Below, in pieces: positions 1,041-61,809 of a stretch of DNA of 64,000 nt (positions are counted from its first letter, which is position 1; each line of letters starts with the position of its first letter). The notes below the pieces were generated by a model. The model worked only from the letters and a program-made list of their open reading frames with translations. It did no database searches and had not been told where the DNA came from. The translations under genes were made by a program, and so were the position numbers. The DNA is from Cephalotus follicularis (Eukaryota > Streptophyta > Magnoliopsida > Oxalidales > Cephalotaceae): positions 205,037 through 269,036 of the forward strand of contig BDDD01000052.1 in the NCBI GenBank assembly GCA_001972305.1. Direction: 5' to 3'.

Positions 1041-2975
1041 TACCTTCAACATGCATATTTAATTACTGTACTGAAATATATGCCTGTTTGCATATTTATG
1101 GACTAAATGGATTGAGGTATTTAATACCCATACAACTGATATGCATGAGGGTAGTTTTATGATTTAATTGAGAGTTATAAAACCTTACCGTACACCAAAA
1201 TGCACCAGATTACTCCCCACACACATAAACTACCCTAAACACTCTTTTTTTCTGATCCTAAGCCATTTCCTCTCATTCTCCATCACGAAAAAAAATCTCC
1301 TCACAACTGCCACTGTCGATTCTTAATCAAAGACCAAGGGAGGGATTTTGCTCGTTCTAGATACTGATTTCTTGAGGTTGGAGTGGATTGAAGTGAAGAT
1401 TGAACTTGAGTTGTTCCTTCATCTCCTCCTTTCTTCCTTTTTCTTCAAAGATAAAGCTCCTAGCAAAGTGGTAGAGTTTCTCTACCTGAAATGTGCCATG
1501 GATTCATGATTTATAGCTTCATTGGATTGATTAAATGTGATATAGTACTTTTAATGGATTGAATTGAAGGAATTAGATTTTTAGGTTAAAATGGGGGATT
1601 TTGACCTAGAAATTGAATGGGTGGCTCTACTAGATTAGGGATGGTTTAAAGTATTAAGTGAAGTGTATGGAGCTTGTTTTAACTGATTTACACAAGAAAA
1701 ATGGACTAAGGAACGAATTATGGCTTGAATTGAGTTTTAAGAAAACTGATATCCGGTTTCTAGAGCTGAAAGCGTTGACGCTTTCATCAAAAGCATCGAC
1801 GCCTTCCTTGTTATACAAAAAGAAAATCTTGCCTGCATTGTAAGCGTCGACACATAGCCCTAAAGCGTCGCCGCTTACAAGTCGTATTTCAATGGGTTTT
1901 CAAGGATACCCTTCAATGCCTAGCCTTGTTGGCAGTGCGTAGCTAACCGACAACACTTAGCCCATAGCGTCGCTGCTTAGTGAGTTTTCACACAACATGA
2001 ACCCACTACCTCTCGTTACCGACGATGCCAAGCTTAACATTTGACTCCTAGAACCAAAGTGTCACCGCCTAATCTAAGACATCTTTGTTTAAAAGATGTC
2101 AGCATTTTTAAATGTATTTTAAGAATATTTTTCTAATTAATTTCTTTCGGAACCTTTCCTTGACTCATGTGTATTTTTAAAAGTTGGTTTAAACATGGTT
2201 TTAATTGTGGATCTATCTTGGATTGATTCCCGTAATAAATGATTGTTCTATAACCGAAATGAAATGTTTTCTACAAGGATTAGTAAGGAATTAGAATGAG
2301 AGATATTAACGTATGGAGATATGAGGATTATTAGAGTATGGTGTGTTGTATGGTATGATTGTATGGTACGTGTTAATATAATAGAGTGACCCTAAGGTAC
2401 GTGAATATTGGTTGAGCTCCTACGTGTCGGCAACAAATACTAGTTAATCTCTGGCGTATATATCCACAGGCAACTAGACCCAGTAGAGCTATGTTGTGTA
2501 TATCCATCCGCAACTTGGGGGTGAGAGTTTTAGTTGAGGTTTGATGTCAATATTCACAGGCAACTAAACCTAGTTGAGCTCTGGCGCCTGTATTCTCTAG
2601 CGGCTAGAAATTCTAGTCAAGCTCCCTTGTGTATATCCAAGGGCCGCTAGATATACTTTCTTATAAGGGAGGTCGTTAACTTTATAGGTTGTTATATGTT
2701 GTATGGACGTGCTTGGACGTATGGTATGACATTGATTGTCTGTTAGATGTATGGATAGGTTGTATGCTTAGGTCCTATTTGTATATGTCAGTATGGGATG
2801 GTGGTATATAAATGGTTGACCAAAATTGACATTCATGCATATAACATGATATGCATTATAACTGTTTATAACTGTTCATTCATTCGTTCATCACACATGG
2901 GGTTATTCTATGAGGTCGTTTGATGTCCGAGGATGGGGTTATATTTTGGATATCAGATAGAGGAGCTAAAGGTAG
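1041..2975. repeat. LTR-like non-coding segment, copy 1 of a composite unit
   Basis: No coding capacity is visible. The segment matches 13381-15313 along almost its whole length, for example the shared stretch around 1063-1135 and 13381-13450. It has the look of a gypsy LTR. There is a TATA-like patch near 1215-1230, a pyrimidine-rich leader at 1240-1300 and 1420-1450, and a cluster of GCGTCGACGC-like palindromes at about 1770-2090. A diverged tandem repeat of roughly 50 bp built on TTGAGCTCC follows at about 2400-2660. Its true element ends cannot be fixed because it is fused to copia RT fragments on both sides. Confidence 0.6.
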
Positions 2976-3655
2976 CAATAAATACTTAAATTGTCCCAAG
3001 TCATTGGTCTGAAACTTCTGTTGAAGATACACCTTTAAATCACCAATATCAACCTGATCATCCTCAGTAATAACAATATCATCAACATACACCATCAACA
3101 GAATTTTTCCTACATGAGGCTGTCCATAAAATAATGAGTGGTCACTATTACATTGAGATAACCCAAACCATAGAACCACATTTGTAAATCTCCCCAAACC
3201 ATGCCATAGGAGATTTCTTCAACCCATGTAATGATTGTTTAGGCTTAGATGCATGACCTAACTCCCACCGAGCAACAAAAACTCGAGTTTTCTCCATATA
3301 TACGTTCTTGTGAAGTTCCCCATTTAGAAAAGCATTCTTGACATCGAACTTGCCAGTGATGGACAACAACAGGAGAAATAAGTAATATGATGGAGGCTAA
3401 CTTAGCCACAAGAGAAAAAGTATCAGAATAATCAACCCATAAACTTGTGCATACCCTTTAGTCACTAAGCGAGCTATCAACCAAGCAATAGAACCATCAG
3501 GATTAACTTTGATTGCACAAACCCATTTACAACCAATCGCAAATTTACCTTTCGATAATGGGACCAGATCCCAAATATGATTATGCTCTAAGGCCCGCAT
3601 TTCTTTGTAGTGACCCAAATTCTATGGATCGCTTTACTACCTTTAGCATACATAT
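2976..3655 (-). pseudogene. Copia RT fragment, second copy, fossil
   Basis: This is the minus-strand copy of the RT region also seen at about 375-1040. It shares the YVDDIVI box (about 3070-3100), HKNVYMEK (about 3280-3310) and IGCKWVCAIKVNPDGS (about 3490-3540). It is shorter than copy 1 because it starts within the RT at the duplication joint. It is broken and has no partner domains. Its far side (3600-3664) carries the same non-coding flank as copy 1 and then meets solo LTR-C. Confidence 0.85.
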
Positions 3656-4454
3656 GTAATTACTTTTAATGCCCCAGAATTTCATAAATCATTATTGTGA
3701 TATTGGTGCAGTGTACGGCCGTAATAAAGCCGATAGAGGCCCAGAGCAATAAAAGGCATTGCTCATTGAAGCCCACAATTATAAAGCCCAAATGGTTAAT
3801 AAAACCTATTTTTAATGCGCACCTGTAAGGCCCAAGGTTCATATTATTATTACTGTTATTTTAGTGGGCGGTTGGATGAATTAATATCTCAATGCGTGGA
3901 GTAGTCGGGACTCAAGCCTTAATATTTGTTGGTAAATGCCAATAAGAAAGCCCAAAGAATAATAAAGAAAGAAGGAGACACGGGCGCATAGCGTGTCCGT
4001 GCGAAGAAAGAAAGAAAGAGGCGAGGGAGAGAGCGCGGGACAAAGAGTGGGAGAGCGCACAGGAGAAGAACGGCGCCGGAGCGAGCCCCCGGACCAGGAT
4101 AAGACGGCGAGCAACCCAGGCCCTCAACCCGTCGGTAACCTCTCTCTCTTCTTCTCTTTTCTCTCTTTTCTTCTATTCTCTTCCCTGACGTTGTGCGTCT
4201 CGGCTGTGCGATTTCACCGCCGTTAGCTTCGTGGATTGAGCGGGTATTCTTCTAGAAGGCTAGCTCTGCCCATTTTGATGATGGTTGTAATAACCGCAAT
4301 TTCAATCGATGTATATTGATCCAATTATTGAAATAAAATATACATTTTAATTGAGTTATTGTCCAATTATTATATTCTTCTGTGTTGATTTACGTTTGGA
4401 TTGAATGGAGGTTCATTTTGGTGAAAATCGAACTTGAGAAACCCTAAAATAGCC

Positions 4455-4575
4455 CTTGGCAGCCGACTACCACAGGGGAAAGTCGACTGCCTGGTTTGTG
4501 AAGGGGCAGCCGACTGTCACAGGGGAGCAGTCGACTGCCTGATGCGTGATGAGGACAGTCGACTGGCCCATGCAT
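4455..4575. repeat. CAGTCGACTG palindrome cluster in LTR-B (first group)
   Basis: Several copies of cagtcgactg or one-base variants lie 15-40 bp apart. A perfect 10-bp palindrome is at 4528-4537. A second group of the same motif lies at 5625-5745 in the same LTR. Confidence 0.85.
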
Positions 4576-5624
4576 CCAGTTGACTGGAATTGCGCAGAAC
4601 AGGTGTCTGTGCATGCCTGTTAAACTGAACTAAGGGGAGAATGCATGGGGGGCAGGTGTCACTCGAGACAGGGCTGCCAGAACATGCAATTAGAGTGCTT
4701 GCATGCCCTCTGTTCTACCTGCAATTTGCAGTCCTGCAACCTGCAAGAATCAAAGAGAGAAAAGGGTAGGAAAGGAGGTGCATGTGAGAGAGAGAAGAAG
4801 GGAGAGCAGGCTGAGTTATGGCTCTGGCGAATTCAAATCCCTGAGCCTTTATATCAACTTCTAGCAGCTGTGTGTGAGTGTTGGAAACACTAAAGATTGA
4901 GGAGAATTGCTGGAATTGGTGAAGGAGCTTGCATGTGGATGGTTTAGAGCTCAAAGGAGGAACTTGGGAACTTGGACTTCTCCTGGTAAGTTCCAAATCC
5001 GAGGTCTCTGTTAATATGTTATTGATGTAACTAGGAACGTTGATATCTCCTGTTAATGGATTAGAATCAACAAACTCTTAGAATTGGAATAGAAGGTATT
5101 AAATGGTTCAAGTGCAAATGGGTGTATATAATCTCTAGATGGGATTATAGTTGATGTTAAGGTCAAGATATGCTCACTGGTTCCCTAAATCTATATATGC
5201 ATCTTCTGTCAACACACATTAGGATCAAGAATCCGAAATTGAATAGTAGTTTACATAGAATGCAAGGAAGTTGTTAAATGGAAGTTAAAACTTGGGGAAC
5301 TTGATGATTAAGCTACTGTTGATTGTAACTGTTATAAGTAATTACTGAACATAATGTTACTGATGCATGTATCCATAAACATGCATGTTTAGATTATAAC
5401 CTACTGGATTGAAAGATTGTTGATGAAAGTGACTTGGGGAACTCAAAGAGAAAGGTCAAACTCAATTGATCTTGGGATAGCATTTGAGGTAGAGGTAGTG
5501 ATATGTTATGGAAGATAGTATGCATATTATGTATGTTCATTTTCCGCATTATTACATGCCTTGATTGTATTAAAATTGGACATGGAATTGCATACGAACT
5601 GCCACTGCCTACACTGTCTGGGCA

Positions 5625-5745
5625 GAAGCAGTTGACTGTTCAGAATTACAGTCGACTACTCAACCTATCCAGTCGACTGCCAAGGCAAGGCAGTCGACTA
5701 CTCAACCAAACAGTCGACTATTCTTGAGGGCAGCCGACTGTCCTG
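5625..5745. repeat. CAGTCGACTG palindrome cluster in LTR-B (second group)
   Basis: About six copies of the agtcgact core sit within 120 bp, separated by irregular spacers. The spacing is not a strict tandem period, so this is a motif cluster and not a minisatellite. Confidence 0.85.
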
Positions 5746-7824
5746 GGTAGAAATTGCATAACATTGATTGAATTGCTACTGTTTTGAATTGTTATTGAAT
5801 TGTATATGCTACCACCACCTAGTATATACTGTTGGATGTTAATTAACATCGCTACTATTGATATTTCAACGATCGAACGAACTATGTGCTATATGCACCA
5901 TTTATGGGTTAAACACCATTTTCAAACGAAAACTATTATTTACAAGGAACTACTGATTTATCAATTACTGTTTATCACCTACTGTTTCATATTCTAATGA
6001 TTGAATCAACTGTGTGCTATATGCACAATACATGATATTATCCTATCATTTTCGAATGAACACTTATTGTTTAAAAGGAACTACGGATTTTCCTCCTACA
6101 TGAGAGGTACCTACTATTTTGTTTCCTCATCTGGAAACCACTACTGTACTGATATCGTTTTCCTCATACGAGATGTACGATCACTGAAATGATATATGTT
6201 TCTAAAGAAAACACTTGATATTGCATATTATTTGTGTATGTAATATTACTACTGAATTGTACTGATTGAATTGATCGTCTATGTTTACTGCCGTAGTTAG
6301 TGATGGAGGATATCACTGATTATGGATGTGATCCTGGGTGCCAGGAGTTGGCCAGAGTATCACCCAAATGTCTGCCTTGCAGAATTACCGTTAAACTACC
6401 CGTCAACGCCGGTAGTAAATGTTACCTGATCTGTCATCCTCGGTGCATAGGGTGATAGTTAGGTGGTGCACAGTTGGTGCTAGGAGTTAGCGATATGTGA
6501 CACCCAAACCACTGAATGAATTGATTGTACCCTTGTGAGGTATCTTTGCATATGAACTGTTTATGGCCACTTGGCATGATTGCTTATATATTGGCACACT
6601 GAAATGATATTTTATATAAACTGTCATACATGTTGCATTCATATATTCCTTAGCATCCATTATCTTCCTACTTAGCCAAGTGAGGACAACGGCTAACCCC
6701 TACAATTTCAGATTGAGCGAAGACGTTGGAGTCGCCGCTGAAGCTTGGAGAGCTTCTTTTGTCGTCTTAAGGTTGTTGTTTACTTTTGAAGTATTGTAAT
6801 GAACGAATCATACCTCGTTATGTTATTTTCCTTATGTAAGGATGATTTATGTTGTATTACCCACACGTAGTATGGGCTGCGTGCGGACGACTTGAGTTTT
6901 TATATTCCGGCTTATTGACTGCTTGCGCATATTGTTTTCGTATTATTAAACGAAATGCTGGAATGTACGTTTAAATACTGATATCACCATATATGCTTGT
7001 CTTATGGTGTGGAACCGAAAAACGGGCTGTGACAATGGTTAAGGCGTTTCTCGGCCGGAATCTATCGGAATCAGTCGACTGAGTCAACTCAGTCGTTCTG
7101 ACTCACTGCCTCCTATGACCGTGCGATTAGCTCTGAGTCTCTGTGAGTCTTGGGTAGTGATGCGTAGAACTGCTGGTTTTGTGGTGTTTTTGGGTGGTGA
7201 TCGAAGTTGTTGAAGTCCGTCGAGTTGACTCAGTGAGTCAAACTCACTGTCGGCTGTGACAAGGCATTTTGCGCTAAGTCTCGGGGAGTCTCCGATGGTT
7301 CTGTCTAGATCGTCCAATGTGGAGTATGTTTATGGGTGTCGCCGGAGCTAGGGGAATTTGCCAAAATCTGGCCAGAGCTCCGTTGACAGCAGTGTTGATT
7401 CTTGTACGTTGAGCGTAACGGGAACGTGTTGTATAAGCAGTGTGAAAGAAGTGATCAAGGATAGGAGGTTCCCAAGCGATGACGATTTGATATCCAATTC
7501 AAGCTTGGAGTGGAGTTCCTGTACTAGACTTGGGAGCTCAGACGCTCAGATTGTGATCTTGAAGAGGTGGACTACGATTTGTAACTTGGAATATGAGGTA
7601 GGGATTATATAACTGTGATTTTGAGTTTGATTATAATGAGTTTCATTTGGTGAAATGCATAAATGTTATGGATTGTGGATTGTGTAAATGCTATGGTTGT
7701 TATTGATAGACAATCTGCCATGCATGTTGTGATTTGGACAGAAAATGGACTGAGTTCCATGAGTTGAATGCTTGATTTCCACCTGTATTGTTGTGTTGTG
7801 GTGAGGAAGACGAGTTCTGGTTTT

Positions 7825-8240
7825 GAACACATCGACACCTAGAGGAAAGACGTCGATGCCTTAGACTGTTATACGGGGAGGAAGACGCTTAAAGCATCGT
7901 CGCCATGAAGTGACGTCGACGCCCAGAGATAAAGGCACTGATGCTTAAGGTTCCTACCTTAAAGCATCGACGCCAAAAGAGATATGACGTTGACGCCTAA
8001 GGCTCCAGCCTTAAAACGTCAACGCCAGGGAGTGAAGCGATGATGCTTAAAGGACTATCATGGACGTTGATGCCTAGAGAGGGTACAAGTTAATGCCTAA
8101 GAGAAATTTTGTACACGTTGACGGCTAGGTTATGTGTTGACGCCTAAAGGAACTGTTGTAAACGTTAACGCCAAAGGTATGAGTTGGCGCCTAAGAGAAT
8201 GGACATACACATCGACACCTAGAAGGTACAAGTTGATGCC
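7825..8240. repeat. TCGA-palindrome cluster in LTR-C (gcgtcgacgcc type)
   Basis: There are more than ten degenerate repeats of the form (a)cgtcgacgcc(taaa), alternating with their reverse complement, for example gacgtcgacgccc near 7914. The Cop-D insertion lies immediately downstream (8260). Confidence 0.8.
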
Positions 8241-8259
8241 AAAAGGGTTGCTTGCATAT

Positions 8260-8961
8260 TGAAATAACTATATGGCAACTTTTAGATAATAAATTTGTTT
8301 GCGGAAAAGACAAATTAAACTATGAATATAAAAAAGCACACAAAAACAATCAAACAATTACAAATAATAAAGAGAGAGAGTTAGAGAGATGCAAACACGG
8401 TTTATAGTGGTTCGACAAAATCCGTGCCTACGTCCACTTTCTCAAGAACCCCTTGAGATTCCACTAGAGACCACTAGCAACCTTTGATTTCGGCTTGCGG
8501 GTGCAAATCAAAGAAAACTACCTTACACTTGATTTTGGGTTCCGGGTGAAAATCAACTAAACACCTTACAAGGGTTCACTCCCCTCAATATTCTCACTAA
8601 GGGTTTTAACACCCTTCGTACAAAGAAGGATTTGTAAAGATGGTTTGTGTTTACAAAGTAACCTCTCAAAGGTTGGATATGAAAGTGTAAGATTACAAGC
8701 CTTGAGCTTTGATTTGCATAAAGCGCTGACGCTTTATTCCTGAGCGTCGCCGCTTTGAGTTCTTCAACTGATTCCACAAGTCACTGTTTTTAACCGCTGA
8801 TACAAGCTCCTTAAGCGTTGACACTTTGGTCTAAACCGCTGGCGCTTTCCATTAGACCGTCGACGCTTTGATCAGTTTTATCTTTTACTTGCACAGAAAG
8901 TAACAATGTTAAATGCAAATATGTAATCATTAAAACTTAGGATTGAGACTAAAAGTCATCA
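8260..8961 (-). repeat. Cop-D 3' LTR (minus-strand sense)
   Basis: It matches 11111-12162 end to end apart from a length difference. It carries a palindrome cluster (about 8718-8870) of the aaagcgctgacgcttt and gcgtcgccgcttt kind. In the element's own sense that cluster lies in U3, close to the LTR start. Confidence 0.9.
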
Positions 8962-9469
8962 ATCTCCCCCTTTTTGATGATTACAAAGATTTGCTACAAT
9001 AAGGAAAAAAAATGTATAACAATTCATAACAGTAAGTACATTTCAATGATAGATTTCCTTTAGGTACCAATTTAAAAACTTTAGATAAACTCCCCCTTAA
9101 TGTAAGCTATCAATTTTTCCTTAAGCCAAAAGCATTCTCCTCCTTTTTGTTAACATCAAAAACATTATTTCAGCAGTTATGATATCATATTGACAAAATT
9201 AAAGGGATACCAATTTGAAAGATAAAATTTGATTCAAAGAGAGCATTTTATCATTGCATAAAAATCTTGTATTAAAAAATATTACCTCCCCCTTAACAAA
9301 TGCTTTTTCCCCTTACTTTTGTACTTGAACATTTTGAAAAAACAACTCCAAGTACACCTACAAAAACAAGGTTTAAGTTTTTGGTACCCATTTGAACTTG
9401 GGTCCTTGCAAGTTAGTCACAAAAGTTCCTTTAGGAACGCAAATTTTTTTAGTTCTACCAAAACAAAAA

Positions 9470-11057
9470 TTATTTTTATAAATGCAAGAGGTAGAAACAT
9501 GTCATAGTCTACCACAATAATTGCAAATAATTTTAGGCTCATTTTTCTTAACAAAGAAATTATTAAAATGTTTGATATTATTCATTTCTCCATAGCCGAG
9601 ACCGGCTTTGTCAAAAACACATCTTTGAAGTCCTAGTAGGCTATCCAATGTGTCACTACTATTAGAGAACTTAGAAAAAGTCTTCTTCAAAGCATCAATT
9701 TCAATTTTCAATTTTCCATTTTATTCCATTGAATCACTTGATAATTTTGAAGAAACATTTAAAACTTCAATCTTATTCATATAGAAGCTATTCTTATTCT
9801 TTAGAGATTCAATTTTACTTATATATTTGGTATTTTCACTCTTTAGATTTTCAATTTCTTTAGACATGGACATAGCATTTTTCTTTAGGGATTTGTTCTT
9901 TAAACACACATTTTCATATTCAACATACAACTTCTCATAAGCATTTTGCAATTCATCAAAAAAAATTGTACCTCATTATCACTTTCTTCTTCATTAGCAT
10001 CTTCTTCCATAGAGTCACTTTGGGTTTCTGCATGTGCCATGAGAGCAAGATTTACTACCTCTTCATCACTTTCACTTTCTTCAGAGCTTGAGGGATCACT
10101 ATCATCCCAAGTGGCTACCATTGCTTTCTTCTTCTCGGAATGCTCATTCTTCTTCTTGAATTGCTCTTTGTTGAATTTCTCTTTCTTCTTAAGATTTGGG
10201 CACTCGTTTTTGAAATGACCCGGATTTTTGCATTCATAGCAAGTTGGTCCTTCCTTTTTGCTCGATTCTTCATCTTAAGGGAATTTATTTTTGAAGGCCT
10301 TTTTGCCTTTTTGACTCTTGAGGAACTTCTTGAATTGTTTGGAAATAAGAACAATATCATCATCTTCATCGCTCTCACTTTCTTCCCTTAAGGCTTTTAA
10401 GGCAATCGTCTTCTTCTTTTTGGCTTCCACATGCTCATGATTCTTCATCGTTGTCTCATGTGTCATCAAAGAGCCAAAGATTTTCCTCAATAGCCGTCAC
10501 CTTTGGAGTCCAATTCTTCGGCAAGCACCTTAAGATTTTCCTTACAAGTTCTTCGTTAGAATAAGATTTGCCAAGATTTTTAAGAGAATTAGCGATTGTA
10601 GTAAAGCGTGTAAACATGTCACTTATACATTCAACATTATGCATCATAAACAATTCATACTCATGTACAAGCATGCTTATTTTTGATTCCTTTACTTGGT
10701 TAGTCCCTTCATATGTAACTTCTAACAAGTCCCACATTTCTTTGGCCGTGTCGCAAGAGGAAATGCGATTAAACTCATTTGTCCCCATGGCACAAAATAA
10801 AACATGTTTAGCTTTTGAGTTTAATTGAAGCATCCTAAAATCATTATCATTATACTCATTTTCGGGTTTAATTGATTCTACTCCTTCTATCGTTCTTGTG
10901 GGCATCCTAGGACCATTTACAATAATGTGCCATAATTGATAGTCTAAGGATTGTAGAAAAATCATCATTCTAGTTTTCCAAAAACTATAATTGTTTCCGT
11001 CGGTCTAGTTATGGAAGAACCTTCTAATCCTATGTTTAGATTCATAGAAGTTGCCAT
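9470..11057 (-). pseudogene. Gag of Cop-D (UBN2-type capsid plus zinc knuckle), fossil
   Basis: The best-kept stretch (10456-10968) reads as a UBN2/DUF4219-type copia gag. It includes SLDYQLWHIIVNGP, LQLNSKAKHVLFCAMG, MWDLLEVTYEGTNQVKESK and LRCLPKNWTPKVTAIEE. Downstream are lysine-rich sequence, a CX2CX4HX4C knuckle (CYECKNPGHFKNECP, about 10197-10245), an acidic coiled-coil-like region and a partial second knuckle near 9510. The start codon is probably the ATG at 11057, just inside the primer site. The frame has a few breaks. It is clearly homologous to the Cop-C gag at 53656-55197. Confidence 0.88.
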
Positions 11058-11097
11058 GGATCTTTATCTCTAACAATTAAGAATTATGAGATAACCG

Positions 11098-11110
11098 CTC
11101 TGATACCAAT
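11098..11110 (-). other. Primer-binding site of Cop-D
   Basis: On the minus strand it reads ATTGGTATCAGAG directly next to the 5' LTR. This complements the 3' end of initiator Met-tRNA, the usual plant copia primer. Confidence 0.85.
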
Positions 11111-12162
11111 TGAAATAACTATATGGCAACTTTTAGATAATAAATTTGTTTGCGGAAAAGACAAATTAAACTATGAATATAATAAAGCACACAAAAACAA
11201 TCAAACAATTACAAATAATAAAGAGTGAGAGTTAGAGAGATGCAAACACGGTTTATAGTGGTTCGGCAAAATCCATGCCTACATCCACTTTCTCAAGAAC
11301 CCCTTGAGATTCCACTAGAGACCACTAGCAACCTTTGATTTCGACTTGCGGGTGCAAATCAAAGAAAACCACCTTACACTTGATTTTGGGTTATGGGTGC
11401 AAATCAACTAAACACCTTACAAGGGTTCACTCCCCTCAATATTCTCACTAAGGGTTTTAACACCCTTTGTACAAAGAAGGATTTGTAAAGATGGTTTGTG
11501 TTTACAAAGTAACCTCTCAAAGGTTGGATATGAAAGTGTAAGATTACAAGCCTTGAGCTTTGATGGATTTGACAATTGAAGCTTTTCTCTTACTAAGTTC
11601 TTTTCTTTTGCTTGAAAGTGGAAGTTGTTGAACTCTAGTTCTTAGATTGTGCAAAAGTCTCCTTGATCTTCATTCTTGGCTTCTATTTATTGTAGATTTA
11701 AGTTTCTAGCCGTTGTGGAGCTAATAGAGCCGTTGGAGAAGCATTGGAACTTGTTGTATCCGAAACGGTCCTCAAAAAGTGGTCTATTTAATTTCTGCCC
11801 GTGCCCAAAGTTTCGCCGGAGTAGCACTAAGTGCCGACGCTTATGTTACCGTTATGTGTATGAATTTGAATTTCTCGCTTAGACCGCTGGCGCTTTAATC
11901 TGTGAGTCGATTGCTTGCATAAAGCGCTGACGCTTTATTCCTGAGCGTCGCCGCTTTGAGTTCTTCAACTGATTCCACAAGTCACTGTTTTTAACCGCTG
12001 ATACAAGCTCCTTAAGTGTTGACGCTTTGGTCCAAACCGCTGGCGCTTTCCATTAGACCGTCGGCGCTTTGATCAGTTTTATCTTTTACTTGCACAGAAA
12101 GTAACAATGTTAAATGCAAATATGTAATCATTAAAACTTAGGATTGAGACTAAAAGTCAACA
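11111..12162 (-). repeat. Cop-D 5' LTR (minus-strand sense) with TATA box
   Basis: It is the longer of the two LTRs. On the minus strand a TATA-like AATAAATA lies at 11684-11691. The TCGA-type palindrome cluster (11820-12070) is upstream of this TATA box, so it is promoter-proximal U3 DNA. The end abuts TSD catat at 12163. Confidence 0.85.
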
Positions 12163-12559
12163 CATATTACTATGGATTGAGTTGTAGATTGAGATGTGAA
12201 TGATTTCTAAAGTGTTTTATCATTTTAGAAAGTGCATACATGATTTTATTATAAATCATTATTTTACATGAAATATTATATTTCAACGGATTGAAACGCG
12301 GTTTCAAAGATGGTTACGTATTTTGAATAAATATGTTTTGACAAGTATTTTATGACATATAAATTACTTGATGACGAATTTGGAAAGGATTTATTATATA
12401 TATCCAAATGGTTATATGATTTCAAACGTTTATGAACATATAAATTACTTGGGACATATTGGACTGAATTGATTGATTGTGATTGTTACACCGTTAGTGC
12501 GGTGACGGAAGTTGTCACTTACTCTAATGGTGGGTGTTGCCTTAGGAGCGCCACACCTT

Positions 12560-13385: not shown

Positions 13386-15313
13386 GTATTGAAATATATG
13401 CATGTTTGCATATTTATGGACTATATGGATTTAGGTATTTAATACCCATATGGAATGATATGCATGTTTTGCTGTTTTAATTCTACGTGGGGGTAGTTTA
13501 ATGGTTTAATTGAGAGATATAGAACCTTACCGTACACCAAAATGCACCGGATCACTCCCCACATATATAAACTACCCTAAACACCCTCTTTTTTTCATCC
13601 TAACCCGTTTCCTCTCATTCTCCATCACACAACACTTCTCCTCTCAACTGCCACCGTCAATTCTTAATCAAAGACCAAGGGAGGGATTTTGTTTGTTTTG
13701 GCTACTGATTTCTTGAGGTTGGAGTGGATTGAAGTGAAGATTGAACTTGAGTTCTTCCTTCATGTTCTCCTTTCTTCTCTTTTCTTTGAAGATAAAGGTC
13801 CTAGAAAAGTGGTAGAGTTTCTCAACCTGAAATGTGCCATGGATTCATGATTTATAGCTTTATTGGATTGATTAAATGTGATATAGAACTGTTAATGGAT
13901 TGCATTGAAGGACTTAGATTTTTAGGTTAAAATAGGGGATTTTGACCTAGAAATTGAATGGGTGGTTCTATTGGATTAGAGATGGTTTTAAAGTGTTAAG
14001 TGAAGTGTATGGAACTGTTTTAACCGATTTACACAAGAAAAATGGACTAAGGAGCAAATTATGGCTTGAATTGAGTTTTAAGAAAACTGACATCCGATTT
14101 TTGGAGCTGAAAGCGCCGATGCTTTCGTCCAAAGCGTCGATGCCTTCCTTTATTATACGAAAAGAAAATCTTGCCTACATTGTAAGCGTCGACACCTAGT
14201 CCTAAAGCATCGCCGCCTACAAGTCGCATTTCAATGGGTTTTCCAAGATAACCTTCAATGCTTAGCCTTGTTGAGAATACCTAGCCAACTGATGCAACTT
14301 AGCCCATAGCATCACCGCTTAGTGATTTTTCACACAACATTAACCCACCGCCTCTCTTAACAGATGATTCCAAGCTTAACATTTGATGCCTAGATGCAAA
14401 GTGTCACCGGCTAATCTAAGACGTCGCCACTTAAGAGATGTTAGCATTTTTAAATGTATTTTAAGAATATATTCTAATGGATTTCTTCCGGGACCTTTCA
14501 TAGACTCGTGTATATTTTTAAAAGTATGTTTAAACATTGTTTTAATCGTAGATTGATCTTGGATTGATTCCCATAATAAATGATTGTTCTATAATGGAAA
14601 TGAAATGTTTTCTACAAGGATTAGTAAGGGATTAGAACGAGAGATATTGAGGTATGGAGATATGAGTATTTAGAGTATGGTATGTTGTATGGTATGTGCT
14701 AATCTACTAGAGTGACCTTAAGGTACGTGAATATTGGTTGAGCTCCGACGTGTTGGCAACCAATACTAGTTGAGCTCCGGGGTATATATCCACCGACAAC
14801 TAGACCTAGTTGAGCTCCGTTGTGTATATCCATCAGCAACTTGGGGGAGAGAGTTTTAGTTGAGCTTTGATGTCAATATCCACCGGTAGCTAACCCTAGT
14901 CGAGCTCTGACGCTTGTAATCTTTAGCGGCTAGGATTTTTGGTCGAGCTCCCTTGTTATATCCATGGGTGGCTAGATATACTTTCTTATGCAGGAGGTCG
15001 TTAACCTTATAGGTTATTATATGTTGTATGGACGTGCTTGCACATATGCTATGACATTGATTGTTTGATAGATATAAGAATAGGATTGTATGCTTAGGTC
15101 CTATTTGTATACGCTGGTATGGGATGGTTTTATATAAATGGTTGACCACAGTGGGCATTCATGTATATAACATGGCATGCATTATAACTGTTTATAACTA
15201 TTCATTCTTTCTTTCATCGCACATGGCGTCATTCTATGAGGCCATTTGGATGACCCATCCTTCATGATGGGGTTATATTTTGGATATCATATAGAGGAGA
15301 TAAAGGAAGCGAT
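13386..15313. repeat. LTR-like non-coding segment, copy 2
   Basis: It continues copy 2 of the composite unit after the solo LTR-C. It matches about 1067-2975, with a TATA-like atatataa (13563-13570), a pyrimidine leader (13575-13640), TCGA palindromes (14105-14430) and the ~50-bp TTGAGCTCC repeat (14740-14960). Homology to copy 1 stops at about 15313. No gene is seen in it. Confidence 0.65.
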
Positions 15314-15331
15314 AAGTGATAGGACCATTAT

Positions 15332-17589: not shown

Positions 17590-17940
17590 AAAACATGGGA
17601 TTTAGGCATCGACGCTATCATGCTAGGTGTCGACACTTTTAGGCATTTTACCTTAAGCGTCAACGGTTCACCCATTTCCTTTAAGCCTTAACAGATTCTA
17701 TGTTCGCGTTAATGCATAGCGCTACTTATCGCGCAGAGTGCCAAAGAACATATTAAGCATCGACTGGTCACCCTCAAGGAGTCAACACTAAGCGTTGTAC
17801 TACAATGTTGTGCGTCAACGTTATGTGTTGACGCGTTGCACTGAGTAGCGCATAGAAACGCAAGGAACACATATCACGCCAAGTGGTCATTCATAAGACG
17901 TCAACTGATCACCCTCAAGGCGTCAACGCTTATGCCTTAG
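17590..17940. repeat. TCGA-palindrome cluster in Gyp-A LTR
   Basis: Degenerate gcgtcaacgcytta motifs recur about ten times in both orientations. They match in type the cluster in LTR-C. Confidence 0.75.
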
Positions 17941-18724
17941 CGCCATTGGGTTGACCAATGCTGTGGGTTTGAAAATAGTTCAAAACCCAAATTAAATCTA
18001 GTTCACTCCGTCACAATAAGGAATCCAAAGCATGTGTATAATGTACCTGTTAATAATTGAGCTTGCGAATTGGGAGGACTTGTAACAGAATCGACGAATT
18101 GCCACCTCCTCTAAGCTTCACTCACTACCATGGGTACATCTCCTTCTTGTGCATAAAGAGCTTCCACTTTCTCTCTTAGTATCACTGCAATAATTATCAC
18201 ACTTTTGTTACGACCTACATACCGAAAGCAACGCACTGTCATCACCAGAGCTCCAGCCAGATTCTGGTCAACACATAGGAGCTCCAACCACGCCATAAAA
18301 AGACTCCACATTGGTTGATCCATACAATGCTACTGGAGACTCACCGTGACTCGCCGTAGAATGCGCTGTCATGGCCGGAAGTGAGTCCAACTCACTTAGT
18401 TGACTCGCTGGACTTCAACCACTATGGCTGCCTCATAAAAACGCAACAAAGCCTTCAGTTCTATGCGTGTCTGCCCAAGACTGGCTAAGAAACGCAGAGT
18501 CACGGGCGACAACGAGCTAGAACGACCGAGCTGACTCAGCCTTCAAATTCCAGCCAATTCATTGACGATTCTAGACTAAAACAGAGATAAGTAAAGCTAA
18601 TCTAGCTGCACTTATGACGACTGGCCCTGCGGCAAAGTGAAGTTGTCGGAAGGTAAGAAGCTCTATGCTTCGGTTTCCATAGAGAAGAAAGAAAATGGAT
18701 AGGAGGAATTACCTTGCAGTGTAG

Positions 18725-31984: not shown

Positions 31985-32175
31985 TGAAAGCATTGACGCC
32001 TTTGAGAAAAGAGTTGACGTCTACGCGCAATACCACTACAGTAAATCGAACCAAGACGCATAAGCGTCGACGCCTGCACGCTAAAAGGCTGATACGCTAG
32101 GCGCTAAAGCGTCGACGCCTACGCAGTAAAAGTTTGACGCTTTTGAGAAAACGCGTCGACGCTTACGCGTATAAC
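31985..32175. repeat. TCGA-palindrome cluster in the Cop-B leader
   Basis: Three perfect copies of GCGTCGACGC (32064-32073, 32109-32118, 32153-32162) lie among degenerate copies in both orientations. Here the cluster is outside the LTR, between primer site and gag. Confidence 0.9.
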
Positions 32176-42844: not shown

Positions 42845-43330
42845 TTGGCATCAACGACTATACTATAGGCGTCAATGTGCTGGGCTTGAGTATGAGTTCT
42901 GGGCTTTGGAAGATGATCTTCACCAACCCCTTGAATGATTCTCGTCGACGTGCTCGGGATTGCATTATTGGCGTCAACGCCATATGGAAGACGTCAACGT
43001 CAAAAGGTGCAATTTTGGATAGTAGGTTTGGACGTTAACGTGAAGCCTTTTTAGCGTTAACACCAAGCTAGAAGATGTCAACATCATATTTAGTCGTCAG
43101 CGCAAATGTGTGCACAAATTAGAACAAAGACTTGGACGTTAACACACAAGGGAAGTGGAGTCAACACAAATGACATTCATGTCAACGTCATGAATACGCG
43201 TCAATGTATATATGAATAAAGATAGACAAAAGTTTATGGTGTCAACGCAAAAAACTAATGGAGTTAACACATAAGGGGATAGACATCAATGCCATGCGTA
43301 CAAGTCAAAGGCAATGATAGCCAGACACAA
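42845..43330. repeat. TCGA/TCAACG-type palindrome cluster in Cop-C LTR (U3)
   Basis: About fifteen degenerate copies of ggcgtcaacgcc-like motifs in both orientations, all upstream of the TATA box at 43429. Confidence 0.8.
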
Positions 43331-44199
43331 AATTTGCAAAAAATGAAGTTGCTAAAATGGTGAGATCCTACCATACATGACTCCAACGCGCCCTTGATGA
43401 TTGCAACAGTAATATTCAACAAGAAGGCTATAAATAGAGGCCGAATCAACAGCAAAAGATAAAGCAATACATCAAGCAATTCTCAATTAAACTTTCATAT
43501 TCTCAAAGAGCCTTTGTTATATTTTGCAATCTTTATCTTTGATATTTGTGACGACCCGAATTCCCTTTTACACTGTTCATGCATACATCGTACCGTATTG
43601 TACCGTACTGAACTATATTGAATTGAGGTATTCTTATACCTATTGATATTGTATTGGTCATATGCATGTATAGTCGGGATTTTGGGCCGAGTTTCGGAGA
43701 GTTGATCGAATCGACTATTTAAGTTAATTCTTTCTCTCTTTTCTCTCATTATTCTCATTTCCTCTTCTCTCTCAAGCTGGTGCCTCCATCTTCCTCCCTT
43801 GCAGCCAGAATTGAATCTCCATCGACAAGGACAGTGATTACAAGTGGTGGCTTACCGATTGCACAAGAAAGTAGTGGATTATTGGGCGTTTTCAGCCGAT
43901 TGATCCATCGTTAGCTCAACTTTTGAAGCTTCAGTGAAAGGTAGGACTTCTTTACTGAATTGCCTACTGTTTTATTAATTGATTGATTGAATTGCATGAT
44001 TGAATTGAGGTTCTGGGGTTTGTAGCAAACCCTTGACCTAATTGTTAAATTGAATGATTGAAATCGAATTTGGAAGGTTGTAACTAGTCTTTCTGACCTC
44101 AAATGATTGATTGTAAACTTTGGTTTTCAATTAATGGCTTTAAATTGGATTTTAACCTGAGATTGGCCCTATTTTCTGCACAAAATCGACTTTGCCCGG

Positions 44200-44540
44200 A
44201 AAAGACATCGACCCTTAGCCCAAAGACGTCGATGTCTTTCTCATACGAGTGCTATATCCTTGATTCTGCAGCAAAGACATCGATGTCTTTCAAAGACGTC
44301 GACGTCTTTTCCTTGAGATGTCTCTCCCCTGGAAAGACATCGACGCTGAACATCGATGCGCATTCTTAGGCTATTTTTATTGAAAAGCGTCAACGCCTTT
44401 CTCCAAAGACGTCAACGTCTTTGGCCAGTTCTCTGCATAAACAGGGAAGGACATCGATGTCTTTCTAAAGACATCTACGTCTTTCCTCCGTTTTAAAGAG
44501 GAGTCGATGTCTTTCACCAAAGACATCGATGCCTAATGTA
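44200..44540. repeat. TCGA/ATCGAT palindrome cluster in Gyp-B 5' LTR
   Basis: Two neighbouring perfect 18-bp palindromes, AAAGACATCGATGTCTTT (44273-44290) and AAAGACGTCGACGTCTTT (44292-44309), plus about ten degenerate copies. The counterpart in the 3' LTR is at 51475-51810. Confidence 0.95.
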
Positions 44541-45536
44541 TTGAAAGGAGGTTTTAACTGTTTTAAAGCTAGTTTTCCACTTCTTTTCACATCGCCACTT
44601 GACCGGAGCCTTACTTGAGGTGATCAAGTGTTTGAAAACAGTTTTAATGATTGTACTGACCGATTGATTGCTTGGGTCATGAGTGTTGCTGCGAGTCTAA
44701 GTCGGTAAAATGGATGCACGTTCCCATTCCTCCATTAGGCACCACCACTTATTGGCCTTGCTTCGACGTTGTATTGATACATTGACCGATTGCTTGGGTC
44801 ATGAGTGTTGTTGCGAGCCTAAGTCGGTATGATGGACGAATGTTCCCATTTCTCCATTAGACACCACCACTTATTGACTCTACCCAATATTGTATTGACT
44901 TGATTGATTGATTGATTGATTGTATTGTATGGATCCTATAGAGCGACCTCATGATTCGTGTTGGCATGTTAGGTTGTTGACTCTATCCACCTATTCTGCC
45001 AATCGTTTCATTTATTGTATTGTATTGACCCGCTGATGAGCAGTACTGATTGATTGTCGATTGATGCTCCCTTGAGGTCGTAGCTCCCTAATGGTATCAG
45101 TAGCTCCCTCGGTTGTAGCTCATCGAGACCGTATTGACCCAGCCATAGGCTGGAAGATCTATGAGTCCCAGACCTGATCAATCTGGAAATCGTAGATAGA
45201 TCTCCCACCCTTTTTGAAGGACTACCTTCCGTGGGATTGATCACCGCTAACCGATTGACATTGTATTGACTCGGTCGCATGCTCTATAGGATATTGATTT
45301 ATTTATTGGGTGTTTCATACACCGCCATTGAGTGTCTGCCATTGTATTGATTGTTTGTTATAGATCCTATCCGTATGCTCTGTTATGGGCCACTGTCATA
45401 CAGGTAGTCTGATCGCCAATTGTACATGTACATTTGCCATGTCATGCATTGATATTGTACATCGCACATTGATATTGTATTGATTATCACCGATATTGCA
45501 TATTGTACATGCATACATGCTGCATGGGGTTTCTGC

Positions 45537-45553
45537 TTAGCCAGCGTGGCTAA
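45537..45553 (+). other. Perfect inverted repeat TTAGCCA-gcg-TGGCTAA in Gyp-B LTR
   Basis: A 7-bp stem with a 3-base loop, 367 bp before the LTR end. Related stems occur at the same relative place in LTR-B, LTR-C, LTR-C' and the Gyp-C LTR. Confidence 0.85.
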
Positions 45554-50782: not shown

Positions 50783-53142
50783 TGTCACGACCCGAATTCC
50801 CTTTTGCACTGTTCATGCATCGTACGGTATTGTACCATACTGGACCGTACTGAACTGTATTGAATTGAGGTATTCTTATACCTATTGATATTGTATTGGT
50901 TATATGCATGTATAGTCGAGATTTTGGGCCGAGTTTCGGAGAGTTGATCGAATCGACTATTTAAGTCAATTCTTTCTCTCTTTTCTCTCATTATTCTCAT
51001 TTCCTCTTCTCTCTCTATCCTTCTCCTTCTCTCTCTCTAGCTGGAGCCTCCATCTTCCTCCATTGCAACCGGAATTGCATCTCCATCGACAAGGACAGTG
51101 ATTACAAGTGGTGGCTTACCGATTGAACAAGAAAGTAGCGGATTATTGGGCATTTTCAGCTGATTGATCCATCGTTAGCTCAACTTTTGAAGCTTCAGTG
51201 AAAGGTAGGACTTCTTTACTGAATTGCCTACTATTTTATTAATTGATTGATTGAATTGCGTGATTGAATTGAGTGATTGAATTGAGGTTCTGGGGTTTAT
51301 AGCAAACCCTTGACCTAATTGTTAAATTGAATGATTGAAATCGAATTTGGAAGGTTATAACTAGTCTTACTAACCTCAAATGATTGATTGTAAACTTTGG
51401 TTTTCAAATAATGGCTTTAAATTGGATTTTGACCCGTGATTGGCCCTATTTTCTGCACAAAATCGACTTTGCCCGGAAAAGATATCAACCCTTAGCCCAA
51501 AGACGTCGATGTCTTTCTCATATGAGTGCTATATCTTGATTCTGCAGCAAAGACATCGATGTCTTTCATAGACGTTGACGTCTTTGCCTCGAGATGTCTC
51601 TCCCCTGGAAAGACATCGATGCTGAACATCAATGCGCATTTTCAGGCTGTTTTTATTGAAAAGCGTCGACGCCTTTCTCCAAACACGTCGACGTCTTTGG
51701 CAAGTTCTCTACATAAACAGGGAAGGACATCGACGTCTTTCTAAAGACATCGACGTCTTTCCTCCGTTACAGAGGAGTCGATGTCTTTCACCAAAGACAT
51801 CGACGCCTAATGTACTGAAAGGAGTTTTTAACTGTTTTAAAGCTAGTTTTTCACTTCTTTTCACATCGCCACTTGACCGGAGCCTCACTTGAGGTGATCA
51901 AGTGTTTGAAAACAGTTTTAATGATTGTACTGACCGATTGATTGCTTGGGTCATGAGTGTTGCTGCGAGTCTAAGTTGGTAAAAGGGATGCACGTTCCCA
52001 TTCCTCCATTAGGCACCACCCCTTATTGGCCTTGCATCGATGTTGTATCGATACATTGATTGATTGCTTGGGTCTTGAGTGTTGTTGCGAGCCTAAGTCG
52101 GTACGATGGACGCACGTTCCCATTTCTTCATTAGACACCACCACTTATTGACTCTACCCAATATTGTATAGACTCGATTGATTGATTGATTGTATTGTAT
52201 GGATCCTATAGGGCGACCTCATGATTCGTGTCGGCATGTTAGGTTGTTGACTCTGTCCACCTATTCTGCCGATCGTTTCATTTATTGTATTGTATTGACC
52301 CGCTGACGAGCGGTACCGATTGATTGTCGATTGATGCTTCCTTGAGGCTGTAGCTCCCTAACGGTATCAGTAGCTCCCTCGGTTGTAGCTCATCGATACT
52401 GTATTGACCCAGCCATAGGCTGGAAGATCTATGAGTCCCAGACCTGATCAATCTTGAAACCGTAGATAGATCTCCCACCCTTTTTGAAGGACTACCTTCC
52501 GTGGGATTGATCACCGCTAACCGATTGACATTGTATTGACTCGGTCGCATGCTCTATAGGATATTGATTGATTGATTGGGTGTTTCATACACCGCCATTG
52601 AGTGTTTGTCATTGTATTGATTGTTTGTTATAGATCCTATCCGTATGCTCTATTATGGGCCACTGTCATACGGGTAGTCTGATCTCCAATTGTACATGTA
52701 CATTTGCCATGTCATGCATTGATATTGTACACCGCACATTGATATTGTATTGATTGTCACCAATATTGCACATTATACATGCATACATGCTGCATGGGGT
52801 TTTTGCTTAGCCAGTGTGGTTATATCTTTGTGTGCGACATAGGTAGGGCATCAGGTAGCAGCGGACAGAAGGATTGAAGACTTGATTTGATCGCATGACT
52901 GGTTATGAGATTGTAGTGAAAAGTTTGGAAGGTTTTATACTGAAATGCTGCATTGTAAAAGACATTATTGTAAAAGATTATTTTGTACTGTATGAATGGA
53001 TTTGTTTTGTATCTTCCGCAAGTGTTATATATTGTAAAGTTTTAAGTTTTCCGCATTTTTATATTGCTAGTCCCGACCATTGTATTGTGTATTGGATTGA
53101 GAGTAATGCCACGTGTCCGCCCTGCGGGCGCGGGGTGTTACA
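50783..53142 (+). repeat. Gyp-B 3' LTR
   Basis: 2360 bp, preceded by the purine tract at 50770-50782. It is collinear with 43547-45920, including the palindrome cluster (51475-51810), the ~116-bp duplication and part of the TTAGCCA repeat (52807 onward). Confidence 0.93.
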
Positions 53143-58507: not shown

Positions 58508-59854
58508 TGTAATAACCATAATTTCCATTCATGTACTTTGTACCATCGATGAAGAAAATATACTTTGGGATGTTATGTTGTTACCTTTTTAATCGAATGA
58601 AGTGGGAATAACATTCTTACACGGAAAGTAAAGAAATGATTTCTGGTATTAAACCGCCGACGCTTAGAGTCATACCATCGACGCTTTAAGCCCTGTTAAG
58701 TACACAAAATGCACAGCTGAAGGCTGTGATTAGGCGCACACAGTCGACCTTCAAGCGCCCAGCATCGACACTTAAAGGCATATAAGCACCGACGCCTAAA
58801 AGTAACCGGCGACGCTTTAGGCGTGTTCTGGCGCAAAACATGTGTCAATTGGAATGAAATGGCAGAGCTGACATAATGGGAACATTGGCATGTGTCCATA
58901 GAAGTGGTTGCCATACAAAAGAGGCGCTGCCAGCTGTTGTTAATGCCAGACTAATAGCTTGCATGTCTACCCACCACCTGAACAACCTGCAAAGTTAGAG
59001 AAGAACAAAAGAATGCAGGCATGTGAGAGAGGGAAATGCACAATGAAAGTTAAACTGGCTGAGGAAATTAAAGGCACGAAACTGAGCCTTTATATCAGCT
59101 GATTAGTCGAGTGATGTCAGATGTCACTGGCTAACGGAGGTGGTCCTATGTGCCAGGAGTTGGCTAGAGTACACACCAAAACTGCCTGCAATGCAGAGCT
59201 TGATTGTTAAACTGCCCGCTAACGCCGGTAGTAAATGTTACCTTATCTATCATCTTCGGAGTGTAGGGTGATAGATAGGTGGTGCACAGTTGGTGCTAGG
59301 AGTTAGCGACATGTGATACCCAAACCACTGTACTGATTGATTGTACCCTTGTGCGGTATTCTTGCATTATACTGTCTATGGCCACTTGGCATGATTGCGT
59401 ATGTATTGGAGTACTATGTATATATGTCATTTCATATTAACTATCATGCATATTTACATTTATAGATTCAATTACATGCTTTATCTTCCTACTTAGCCAA
59501 GTGAGGACAACGGCTAACCCCCTACAATTTTAGATTAAGTGAAGGCATTCGGGGAGTTGCTGCTTAAGCGTGGAAAGCTTCTTTTTACCTTAAGGTTGTT
59601 ATTATTTTATGACGATGTTCTGTATATTGTATCGAACGGTTCATACCCCTTTACTGTTGTACTTTCCTTATGTAAAAGGATATTTCTTGTATTTTTTAGC
59701 ACGTAGTATGGGCTGCGTGCGGATGACTTGGAATCCAGTTTTAATTGCTTCCGTTTATATTATTTTAAATTGGTATTGGAAATGCTGGATTATTGCTTAT
59801 TTCTGATATCACCACATATGTTGTCTAACGTAATTGGAATAACGGGGTGTGATA
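58508..59854 (+). repeat. Gyp-C 3' LTR (LTR-B family, shorter version)
   Basis: It starts TGTAATAACC and ends near CGGGGTGTGATA. It parallels LTR-B in the second half (ggtgcacagttggtgctagg; ggccacttggcatgattgc; TTAGCC/GGCTAA at 59493-59517). The palindrome cluster at 58655-58830 is of the gcgtcgacgcttta kind, unlike the CAGTCGACTG kind in LTR-B at 4455. Confidence 0.85.

Positions 59855-60661: not shown

Positions 60662-60667
<6 letters not shown>

Positions 60668-60708
<41 letters not shown>
60668..60708. repeat. (GA)n microsatellite in LTR-F
   Basis: About 20 GA dinucleotides, followed by 250 bp of GA-rich DNA. On the minus strand (the LTR's sense) it is a CT-rich leader-like tract. Confidence 0.92.
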
Positions 60709-61308
60709 CTATCCGGCGGGTGAGAGAGAGACAAATGAAGGAGATGACAAAAGAAAAGAAGGTGGCCAAAATAAGGCAAAAACACGTGAGGAAAAAAAGA
60801 AAGAAAAGAGAGTAATGCATGGGAGAGATTTTCGGCAGAGGGCGCATAAGTGGGAGGGCAAAACGCGGGAGAGAGAGGTAAAGAGAGAGTGTTGACGCAG
60901 GAGAGAGTGAGTGAGAGATTGGGAGAGAAACCATTTTGGGAAAGGAGAGATTGAGGGAGAGAGGGTGGCGGCATAAAAGGGGAAAAACAAAGGAATAATA
61001 AACCATTTCCTTTTCACATTGATTTTGCATAATTTGGTTTTTAAAACAAAAGTGACAATTCCTTTTTAAATTGATATTTCAGTTTTCTAAAAGAGAAAAT
61101 GATAAATGGCTTCAAAATAAAAATATTTTCTTTAACCATTTACCAAAGATGTTCATTGGTCAAAATTCAAAATTAAATTACCCCAAACAAACCAAAATTT
61201 TGGGTAATTCATATCTAAAACAATTAGGCAGCCCACAGAAATAAAATTAAAAAGGGGTCCAATTAAAATAAAATAAAATAAATTTTATACGGAAAAACGG
61301 GTATTACA

Positions 61309-61809
61309 TCCAACTCTCACCAAAGGACCCTAAACCTTTTGGGTACCAAAACGATAAACTTTCTTTTTTGTAGGTGTGCTTGAAGAATTGGACAAAGATA
61401 TGCTCCAAGCACATGTTTAGTAAGTACTTATTATTTTTTAATCTTGATTGTTTGATATGATTAAGTTATTTGTTCAGGGAATAATGTTGTTTGATTGATT
61501 ACTTAAACATAATCTTGTTTAAGATGTTTTTGAGTTTGCTATTGTAAAAATTCTTTTTCATATTTTAAAAAAAGGTTCACTCAAATTTGTTCTTGAAGAA
61601 TAAGTTTTTAAATTTTTTAAAATCAAGTTTTCATGCCAACGTTCAATATTAGCGTTAATGCTATTATACACATTAACGAAAATTCTGTTCTTTGTTTTTT
61701 GCGCGTTAATGAAAATATTCATTTATTTTTGTTTTGACGTCAACGCTAAAACAAAGCGTTAACGTAAACAGAGTTTGCTTAGATCTTGTGCGTCAACGCT
61801 ATCTATTAG
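61309..61809 (+). other. Cop-C interior continued, after LTR-F
   Basis: The first ~110 bp read like the end of SIRE-type gag (ggaccc, then ttttgggtaccaaaacgat, then a pyrimidine run and ggtgtgcttgaagaattgg). The Cop-D tail has the same order at about 9310-9420. The following DNA is AT-rich and has no coding. A gcgttaacg/gcgtcaacgc cluster lies at 61640-61795. No protease or integrase is seen before the next insertion, so whether Cop-C is autonomous is undecided. Confidence 0.65.

Follow-up and report, generated by a model that had tools for sequence, protein, structure and literature searches.

A window of 64,000 nucleotides from Cephalotus follicularis (GenBank assembly GCA_001972305.1, contig BDDD01000052.1, positions 205,037 to 269,036) is a nest of plant long terminal repeat (LTR) retrotransposons in which clusters of short TCGA-centred palindromes recur. 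All results come from sequence analysis of this one window in one genome. The clusters are probably arrays of predicted sites for one dimeric, sequence-specific factor common to several copia and gypsy lineages. One dimer would cover a 16-bp palindrome, WARGCGTCGACGCYTW, and dimers would often be paired two helical turns (~21 bp) apart, with further sites about four and five turns away, so that sites would lie mostly on one face of the DNA; binding of the dimers would probably be cooperative. The factor would most likely be host-encoded, as its use by copia and gypsy elements alike suggests.

Array carriers fall into six lineages

The nesting of elements was derived from self-comparison, junction sequences and primer-binding sites. 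Clusters occur in six lineages, with copia and gypsy both present: a tandem unit, Gyp-A/LTR-C, LTR-B/Gyp-C, Gyp-B, Cop-C/Cop-D and Cop-B. An earlier note on this DNA had assigned one palindrome class to at least eight unrelated families; its presence in unrelated copia and gypsy elements stands, but three pairs of those families are related. LTR-C, a solo LTR at ~3665-13380 with LTR-B and Cop-D nested within it, shares two blocks with Gyp-A (73% and 68%). Positions 1983-2746 of LTR-B match 572-1344 of the Gyp-C 3' LTR at 75%, and both LTRs start with TGTAATAACC. Cop-C and Cop-D are 71% alike at the LTR end and 60% onward into gag. In that LTR comparison the array-bearing halves of Cop-C and Cop-D gave no alignment, so their arrays may be separate gains; we nevertheless tallied the two as a single lineage. 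The tandem unit is a two-copy repeat of ~2.6 kb (389-3664 and 13380-15315; two parts, 86-87% identical), the second copy of which is split by the LTR-C solo LTR.

In a Pfam scan, 13 of 20 open reading frames (ORFs) were matched, with copia-type gag or reverse transcriptase in Cop-B, Cop-C and Cop-D, and gypsy-type gag, RNase H or integrase domains in Gyp-B and in pieces assigned to Gyp-A and Gyp-C. LTR-B and LTR-C, neither of which has a coding part of its own, are called gypsy because of their relatives Gyp-C and Gyp-A. The Gyp-B ORF resembled plant gypsy polyproteins; among the best 120 of 7980 scored matches, those with a species name came from plants such as Tanacetum, Drosera and Cucumis, at ~38-63% identity. 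The viral contigs searched gave no relative and no match to one paired-site pattern.

Palindromes are enriched above local composition

We compared the window with 200 shuffles that kept dinucleotides inside 250-bp blocks. The degenerate palindrome CRTYRAYG, which was picked after reading the regions, occurs 71 times, against a shuffle mean of 12.8 (sd 3.4, maximum 24), and no shuffle reached 71. It ranks first among 192 palindromic patterns built from its own half-site letters or the complements of these (median 13). GTCGAC occurs 26 times (5.0 in shuffles). Independently of the choice of CRTYRAYG, the three most over-represented 6-mers of the window were CGACGC, CGTCGA and GTCGAC (order-2 Markov model, six low-complexity stretches masked). 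The window has 16 perfect palindromes with a TCGA centre and a length of 10 bp or more (shuffle mean 2.8, maximum 7), in keeping with the clusters as the earlier note had described them; the unit, LTR-C, Cop-D, Cop-C and Gyp-C regions have none of these and hold near-palindromes.

Most CRTYRAYG sites (55 of 71) lie in the 14 regions that the earlier note had marked (3746 bp), and the other 60254 bp hold 16, near background. Counts reached p at most 0.002 (1000 shuffles per region) in LTR-C (8), Gyp-A (5), the Cop-B leader (4), the left and right Cop-C clusters (8 and 5), both Gyp-B regions (9 and 10) and the left unit copy (2). The LTR-B regions have no CRTYRAYG and seven GTCGAC instead. Both Cop-B LTRs have none, the sites of this element being in its leader only. 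Each Cop-A LTR (~2.45 kb) has a single CRTYRAYG, which is background and agrees with the earlier claim that these LTRs are free of clusters. The repeated site is therefore enriched in LTRs above composition; its other carriers are the Cop-B leader, the tandem unit, which may or may not be an LTR, and the right-hand cluster without an LTR match.

A 16-bp site is shared between lineages

The common site is the 16-bp palindrome given above. Conservation averaged over lineages was 0.40 bits at positions +/-8, 0.01 at +/-9 and 0.03-0.13 beyond. The conservation and matrix set held one copy each of the unit and of Gyp-B, the Cop-D 5' LTR and no LTR-B; the right-hand Cop-C cluster stayed outside matrix training and gave 4 matches when scanned. 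When each lineage was left out in turn, CRTYRAYG came top among 384 palindromic patterns whichever five lineages remained, and in the held-out lineage it ranked first (Gyp-A/LTR-C, Gyp-B, Cop-B), second (unit, Cop-C/D) or ninth (LTR-B/Gyp-C). Held-out 16-bp matrices found 8 matches in the unit, 23 in Gyp-A/LTR-C, 12 in Cop-C/D, 12 in Gyp-B, 6 in Cop-B and 4 in Gyp-C, where 0.02-0.08 were expected; outside all arrays they found 6-10, about the background of 6.0. Arm positions +/-5 to +/-8, which played no part in site choice, agreed with GRAW at 5.2-6.8 of 8 positions across 75 sites in six groups, compared with 3.1 for 233 control sites. GRAW itself was derived from these very sites, however, which leaves the held-out matrix as the only clean test.

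LTR-B is the exception. The full matrix has no match in either of its arrays, in which AGTCGACT arms flank the GTCGAC centre common to the other lineages. We read this element, with the same centre and spacing and other arms, as a possible shift to a related or altered factor. The proposal that every family uses its own arms accordingly applies to LTR-B only, since the held-out matrix recovers a common site in the others.

Sites are spaced in helical phase

Spacing was analysed in 11 non-redundant arrays, the right-hand Cop-C cluster included, after overlapping matches had been thinned to 85 sites with 74 neighbour gaps. Gaps of 20-22 bp made up 26 of the 74 and gaps of 19-23 bp 32; 11 fell at 41-45 bp and 6 at 50-53 bp. 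As a null, sites were placed anew within each array's span, no closer together than 16, 18 or 19 bp (these minimum-distance nulls were added because a first null was too loose), which gave 9.9, 13.2 or 15.8 gaps of 20-22 bp (p at most 0.0007). Power at 10.5 bp was 0.307, compared with 0.071-0.110 under the null (p at most 0.0013), and when periods of 6 to 30 bp were scanned, the packed null was exceeded most strongly at 10.25-10.5 bp (z 4.6, p 0.003 scan-corrected). A 20-22-bp pair was present in 10 of 11 arrays, where the nulls gave 6.0-7.2 (p 0.004-0.03). Contrary to what had been supposed, the spacing is thus not irregular, and the statement that the motifs occur in both orientations has no meaning for a palindrome.

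With LTR-B left out, 18 of 64 gaps were still 20-22 bp (p 0.0003-0.0087). Plain GTYRAC, counted without choice of regions and with second copies dropped, formed 13 pairs 20-22 bp apart, compared with 2.1 per 3-bp bin, and came first among 51 palindromic patterns. Like the shuffles, pattern ranking and 6-mers, this window-wide count is independent of array borders. Close packing was rejected as the cause of the spacing, since phasing survives the minimum-distance nulls, though weaker. Bases beside the sites were 30% identical between neighbours and 27% between arrays (random ~25%), so recent tandem duplication does not explain the spacing and was rejected as the cause of the 21-bp step, although LTR-B array 2, like parts of LTR-C and of Gyp-B, was called as a tandem repeat. 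Together, the sharp edge of the 16-bp site, its dyad symmetry and the helical phasing point to a dimeric protein that would sit side by side on one DNA face.

Array positions and turnover

The arrays are listed below; site counts allow at most 1 mismatch to CRTYRAYG or, in LTR-B, to AGYYRRCT.

1765..2095 (+): unit array, first copy of the ~2.6-kb unit; 8 sites, 2 exact; 21-bp pairs 1773/1794 and 1845/1866
14100..14430 (+): unit array, second copy; same array, not counted as independent
4286..7034 (+): LTR-B, solo gypsy-type LTR (TGTAATAACC...GTGACA) with target duplication ATGGT, inside LTR-C
4455..4600 (+): LTR-B array 1; six AGYYRRCT sites, gaps 20, 27, 21, 28, 21; ~260 bp before a TATA-like TTATATC at 4849
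5620..5750 (+): LTR-B array 2; six AGYYRRCT sites, gaps 20, 21, 21, 20, 20; in a segment unmatched in Gyp-C
7820..8245 (+): LTR-C array; 17 sites, 8 exact
8714..8880 (-): Cop-D 3' LTR array, weak; one exact site and three with 1 mismatch; 5 matrix matches in 8700-8890
11820..12080 (-): Cop-D 5' LTR array; four 1-mismatch sites, pair 11925/11946; ~235 bp upstream of a TATA-like ATAAATA
17590..17945 (-): Gyp-A LTR array; 8 sites, 5 exact; at roughly the distance from the LTR start seen in LTR-C
31985..32175 (+): Cop-B leader array; 6 sites, 4 exact; the primer-binding site at 31857 lies ~130-320 nt upstream
42845..43330 (+): Cop-C 5' LTR array; 15 sites, 8 exact, many TTAA/TCAA centres; final site ~140 bp upstream of TATAAAT at 43429; the LTR (~42703-43546, resuming at 53144) is split by Gyp-B
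61640..61805 (+): right-hand Cop-C cluster; 6 exact sites; LTR placement unsupported
44195..44545 (+): Gyp-B 5' LTR array; 12 sites; LTR ~43547-45920
51470..51815 (+): Gyp-B 3' LTR array; 12 sites; LTR ~50783-53142
58640..58840 (+): Gyp-C 3' LTR array; 5 sites, 1 exact; LTR 58508-59853; in the slot of LTR-B array 1, with CG..CG arms instead; TTATATC follows ~275 bp downstream, at 59090

Two assignments required attention. The right-hand cluster at 61640-61795, which had been given to Cop-C, has no LTR match and adjoins a piece that matches the Cop-D interior. Placement of the left Cop-C cluster in a Gyp-A LTR was rejected: the local alignment scored 101, with a maximum of 107 in 40 same-strand shuffles, and 92 against 87 on the other strand, which does not support it; a copia-type LTR starts at ~42703 instead.

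In two gypsy lineages the array holds its slot in the LTR while its own sequence turns over. With nested insertions left out, the array starts ~1407 bases from the LTR start in LTR-C and ~1365 in Gyp-A, 406 and 261 bases past the last common block, and within the array the two align weakly (59%, E 8e-5). The same two matching blocks (1-60/1-58 and 451-573/475-592; E 3e-5 and 8e-5) enclose LTR-B array 1 and the Gyp-C array, whose arms differ. LTR-B array 2 stands in the ~1.4-kb segment that has no match in Gyp-C.

G+C and CpG are higher in most clusters than in the DNA around them; CpG observed/expected is 1.0-2.0 in the arrays and 0.36-0.80 beside them (0.56-0.57 both inside and outside in LTR-B). 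This richness would stem from the active source elements. Because CpG decays about equally inside and outside the arrays of Gyp-B and the unit (values below), sites in dead copies decay like other CpG, and many TTGA, TCAA and ATCGAT variants are therefore plausibly decayed TCGA sites; no single decay step accounts for the TTAA centres of Cop-C.

Some further repeats stand beside the arrays. LTR-C has more TCAGTCGACTGAGTCAACTCAG-type palindromes at 7060-7260, separate from its main array. Both Gyp-B LTRs carry a 122-bp tandem duplication downstream of the array (44662-44918 and 51936-52192). About 350 bp of the Cop-D 5' LTR (11565-11914) are missing from the 3' LTR, the LTRs being otherwise 98% identical.

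Promoter context and known factor sites

In Cop-C, Cop-D, LTR-B (array 1) and Gyp-C the array precedes a TATA-like box, a location that would suit an enhancer. The arrays may act as enhancers of the LTR promoter, and as a downstream enhancer in Cop-B, with the heat-shock elements of ONSEN as a likeness.

Known plant factor sites, which the earlier note had suggested scanning for, were counted in the 11 arrays (3091 bp) and set against counts from the remaining window, scaled to 3091 bp. The W-box TTGACY (6 vs 4.3), the heat-shock pairs GAANNTTC (1 vs 1.4) and TTCNNGAA (0 vs 0.8), the WT-box (1 vs 1.3) and the VOZ form (0) were not enriched in the arrays. RCCGAC (the DRE core; 9 vs 1.4), TGACG (29 vs 2.4) and ACGT (26 vs 5.0) were, an enrichment that could arise if these words are parts of palindrome variants (TTGACG for TGACG).

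Alternative explanations

Copia and gypsy elements could also have these arms and the 21-bp pair in common because one ancestral array, whatever its function, moved from family to family (through template switching, recombination or capture) and later diverged. Some pairs do look alike by eye, such as those with TAGCCC(T)AAAG between sites in the unit and Gyp-B. Yet spacer identity between arrays is close to random, even the related LTR-C and Gyp-A arrays align only weakly, the Cop-C and Cop-D LTRs fail to align in the halves that carry the arrays, and no terminal repeats or target duplications were noticed at the array edges read, where no systematic scan was made; we regard such descent as unlikely. 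Less likely again is that the arrays serve a transposon-encoded or hijacked anti-silencing protein that removes methylation, like VANC of VANDAL or TnpA of Spm, with the motif, and hence the benefit, common to unrelated LTR elements. The arrays are dense, noncoding and fast in turnover while the motif class persists, and there are precedents in the excerpted accounts of two papers: the VANC6 motif occurs in AT9TSD1, which is unrelated to VANDAL and hypomethylated in VANC6 lines (PMC5735166), and TnpA activates Spm in correlation with demethylation (PMC10398659). However, the VANC motifs YAGTATTAY, AGTTGTCC and AGTTGTAC are absent from both the arrays and the window; VANC21 motifs, as far as the excerpted account goes, have one orientation and often form tandem repeats (PMC5735166), whereas here palindromes stand between unlike spacers; and the similar CpG decay inside and outside arrays in Gyp-B and the unit gives no sign of protection in fixed copies.

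A role in RNA, in which neighbouring palindromes form hairpins with ~11-nt loops for packaging, dimerisation or small-RNA production, seems very improbable to us. The predicted folds of 10 arrays are more stable than those of dinucleotide shuffles (z -0.7 to -8.7), complementarity between neighbours is as good as within sites, and the Cop-B array lies in an RNA leader. But compared with sequences in which the sites were kept and spacers and spacing randomised, the same comparison gave little extra stability (z from -2.3 to +0.5, negative in 7 of 10 arrays), gaps of about 42 and 51 bp suit helical turns and not one hairpin loop, and four arrays lie upstream of a TATA-like box. We see next to no prospect that chance or local composition, in the form of CpG-rich patches, made the palindromes. 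The clusters are mostly G+C- and CpG-rich, but the 250-bp-block shuffles, which never came near the observed count, refute local composition for this window, and matched patterns occur at a median of 13. Of the three explanations that the earlier note had offered, a common factor is the best supported because of the site edge at +/-8, the phasing, the unshared spacers and the slot kept during turnover; spread of one short array between elements long ago is a less likely alternative. With a common dimeric factor, the lineages would have gained their arrays separately.

Several observations weigh against this dimeric-factor reading. CRTYRAYG was weak or not significant in the right unit copy (1, p 0.059), Cop-D (1, p 0.029, and 0) and Gyp-C (1, p 0.047), and the per-array tests are not blind because array edges were chosen for holding palindromes. 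In the spacing data, a strict 21-bp period was not significant (p 0.30); a broad component near 27 bp, weaker against the packed null (z 2.8), had in a first unthinned scan formed a peak at 26-27.5 bp (0.31) level with that at 10.25 bp (0.30); and exact CRTYRAYG sites alone gave 4 pairs at 20-22 bp against 1.9 per bin, with 8 in the best other bin (51-53). Copy-to-copy mismatches were 6.3% inside and 4.7% outside arrays in Gyp-B, 15.2 and 10.4% in the unit and 2.4 and 2.1% in Cop-D, and CpG transitions were 0.179 and 0.178 in Gyp-B and 0.288 and 0.256 in the unit; they were lower inside the array in Cop-D (2 of 26 columns against 4 of 18, too few to judge). Arrays are thus no better kept than their surroundings and show no sign of selection after insertion. 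TATA-like words are common here (LTR-B alone has seven matches), no promoter was located in Gyp-B, Gyp-A/LTR-C or the unit, and the Cop-B array lies in the transcribed leader behind the primer-binding site. Finally, the known sites give no clear factor candidate, and bZIP-like and DREB-like factors would be leads only.

We hold it doubtful, though worth stating, that one trans-acting factor acting through a phased palindrome code might control several copia and gypsy lineages of this genome as a shared retrotransposon regulon, possibly one of cross-superfamily anti-silencing; LTR-B would then have switched code, keeping slot and spacing while its arms changed.

Comparison with known systems

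Heat-responsive elements in the LTRs of ONSEN/COPIA78, COPIA37 and TERESTRA were gained independently and respond to a known host stress pathway, according to the excerpted account (PMC5059998). The arrays here are likewise short clustered sites in LTRs of several retrotransposon families; those elements, in that excerpt, are copia with nTTCn-type sites (PMC5059998), unlike the 16-bp GTCGAC palindrome in copia and gypsy elements described here. VANC arrays of VANDAL and AT9TSD1 share with ours dense motifs in noncoding transposon DNA, fast turnover and presence in unrelated elements, but are described in the same partial source as tandem repeats outside LTR elements, with VANC21 in one orientation (PMC5735166), and their motifs are lacking here. 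Host transcription-factor sites borne by LTRs are also found in EVADE and PHRE1/2, with W-boxes and other stress sites (PMC12786077, excerpt); in our arrays it is TGACG that is enriched, not the W-box.

The subterminal repeats of CACTA elements (En/Spm, Tgm), bound by TNPA-like proteins, resemble our arrays in that short direct and inverted motifs form arrays that differ by subfamily, as the excerpted text describes (PMC2613891). The carriers here are, in contrast, LTR elements; CACTA occurs 55 times across the window, and no CACTA ends were seen framing an array, though no systematic test was made. GCGTCGC-type words may resemble CACTA motifs.

Among the matches listed from the open-licence literature, titles and abstract openings did not report the motif in LTRs. 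The known recurrent gains of host-response elements (ONSEN, COPIA37, TERESTRA) are in copia families in the excerpted source (PMC5059998), whereas the phased site here spans copia and gypsy. If the dimeric-factor reading is true, it would point to a factor on which several families of one genome depend, and make testable how unrelated elements come to use a common route to activation or out of silencing; the paired 16-bp palindromes, 21 bp apart, offer a precise probe for finding that factor.

Other repeats in the window

The Gyp-A LTR region contains a large minisatellite (16600-17400) of 25-bp units followed by 27-bp units, and the block adjoining it recurs near 41754-42425, there without the minisatellite. 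A stretch present in both Cop-A LTRs (18887-19646 and 25525-26347) is ~64% alike to the Cop-B interior at 32333-33150, which is odd for LTR sequence.

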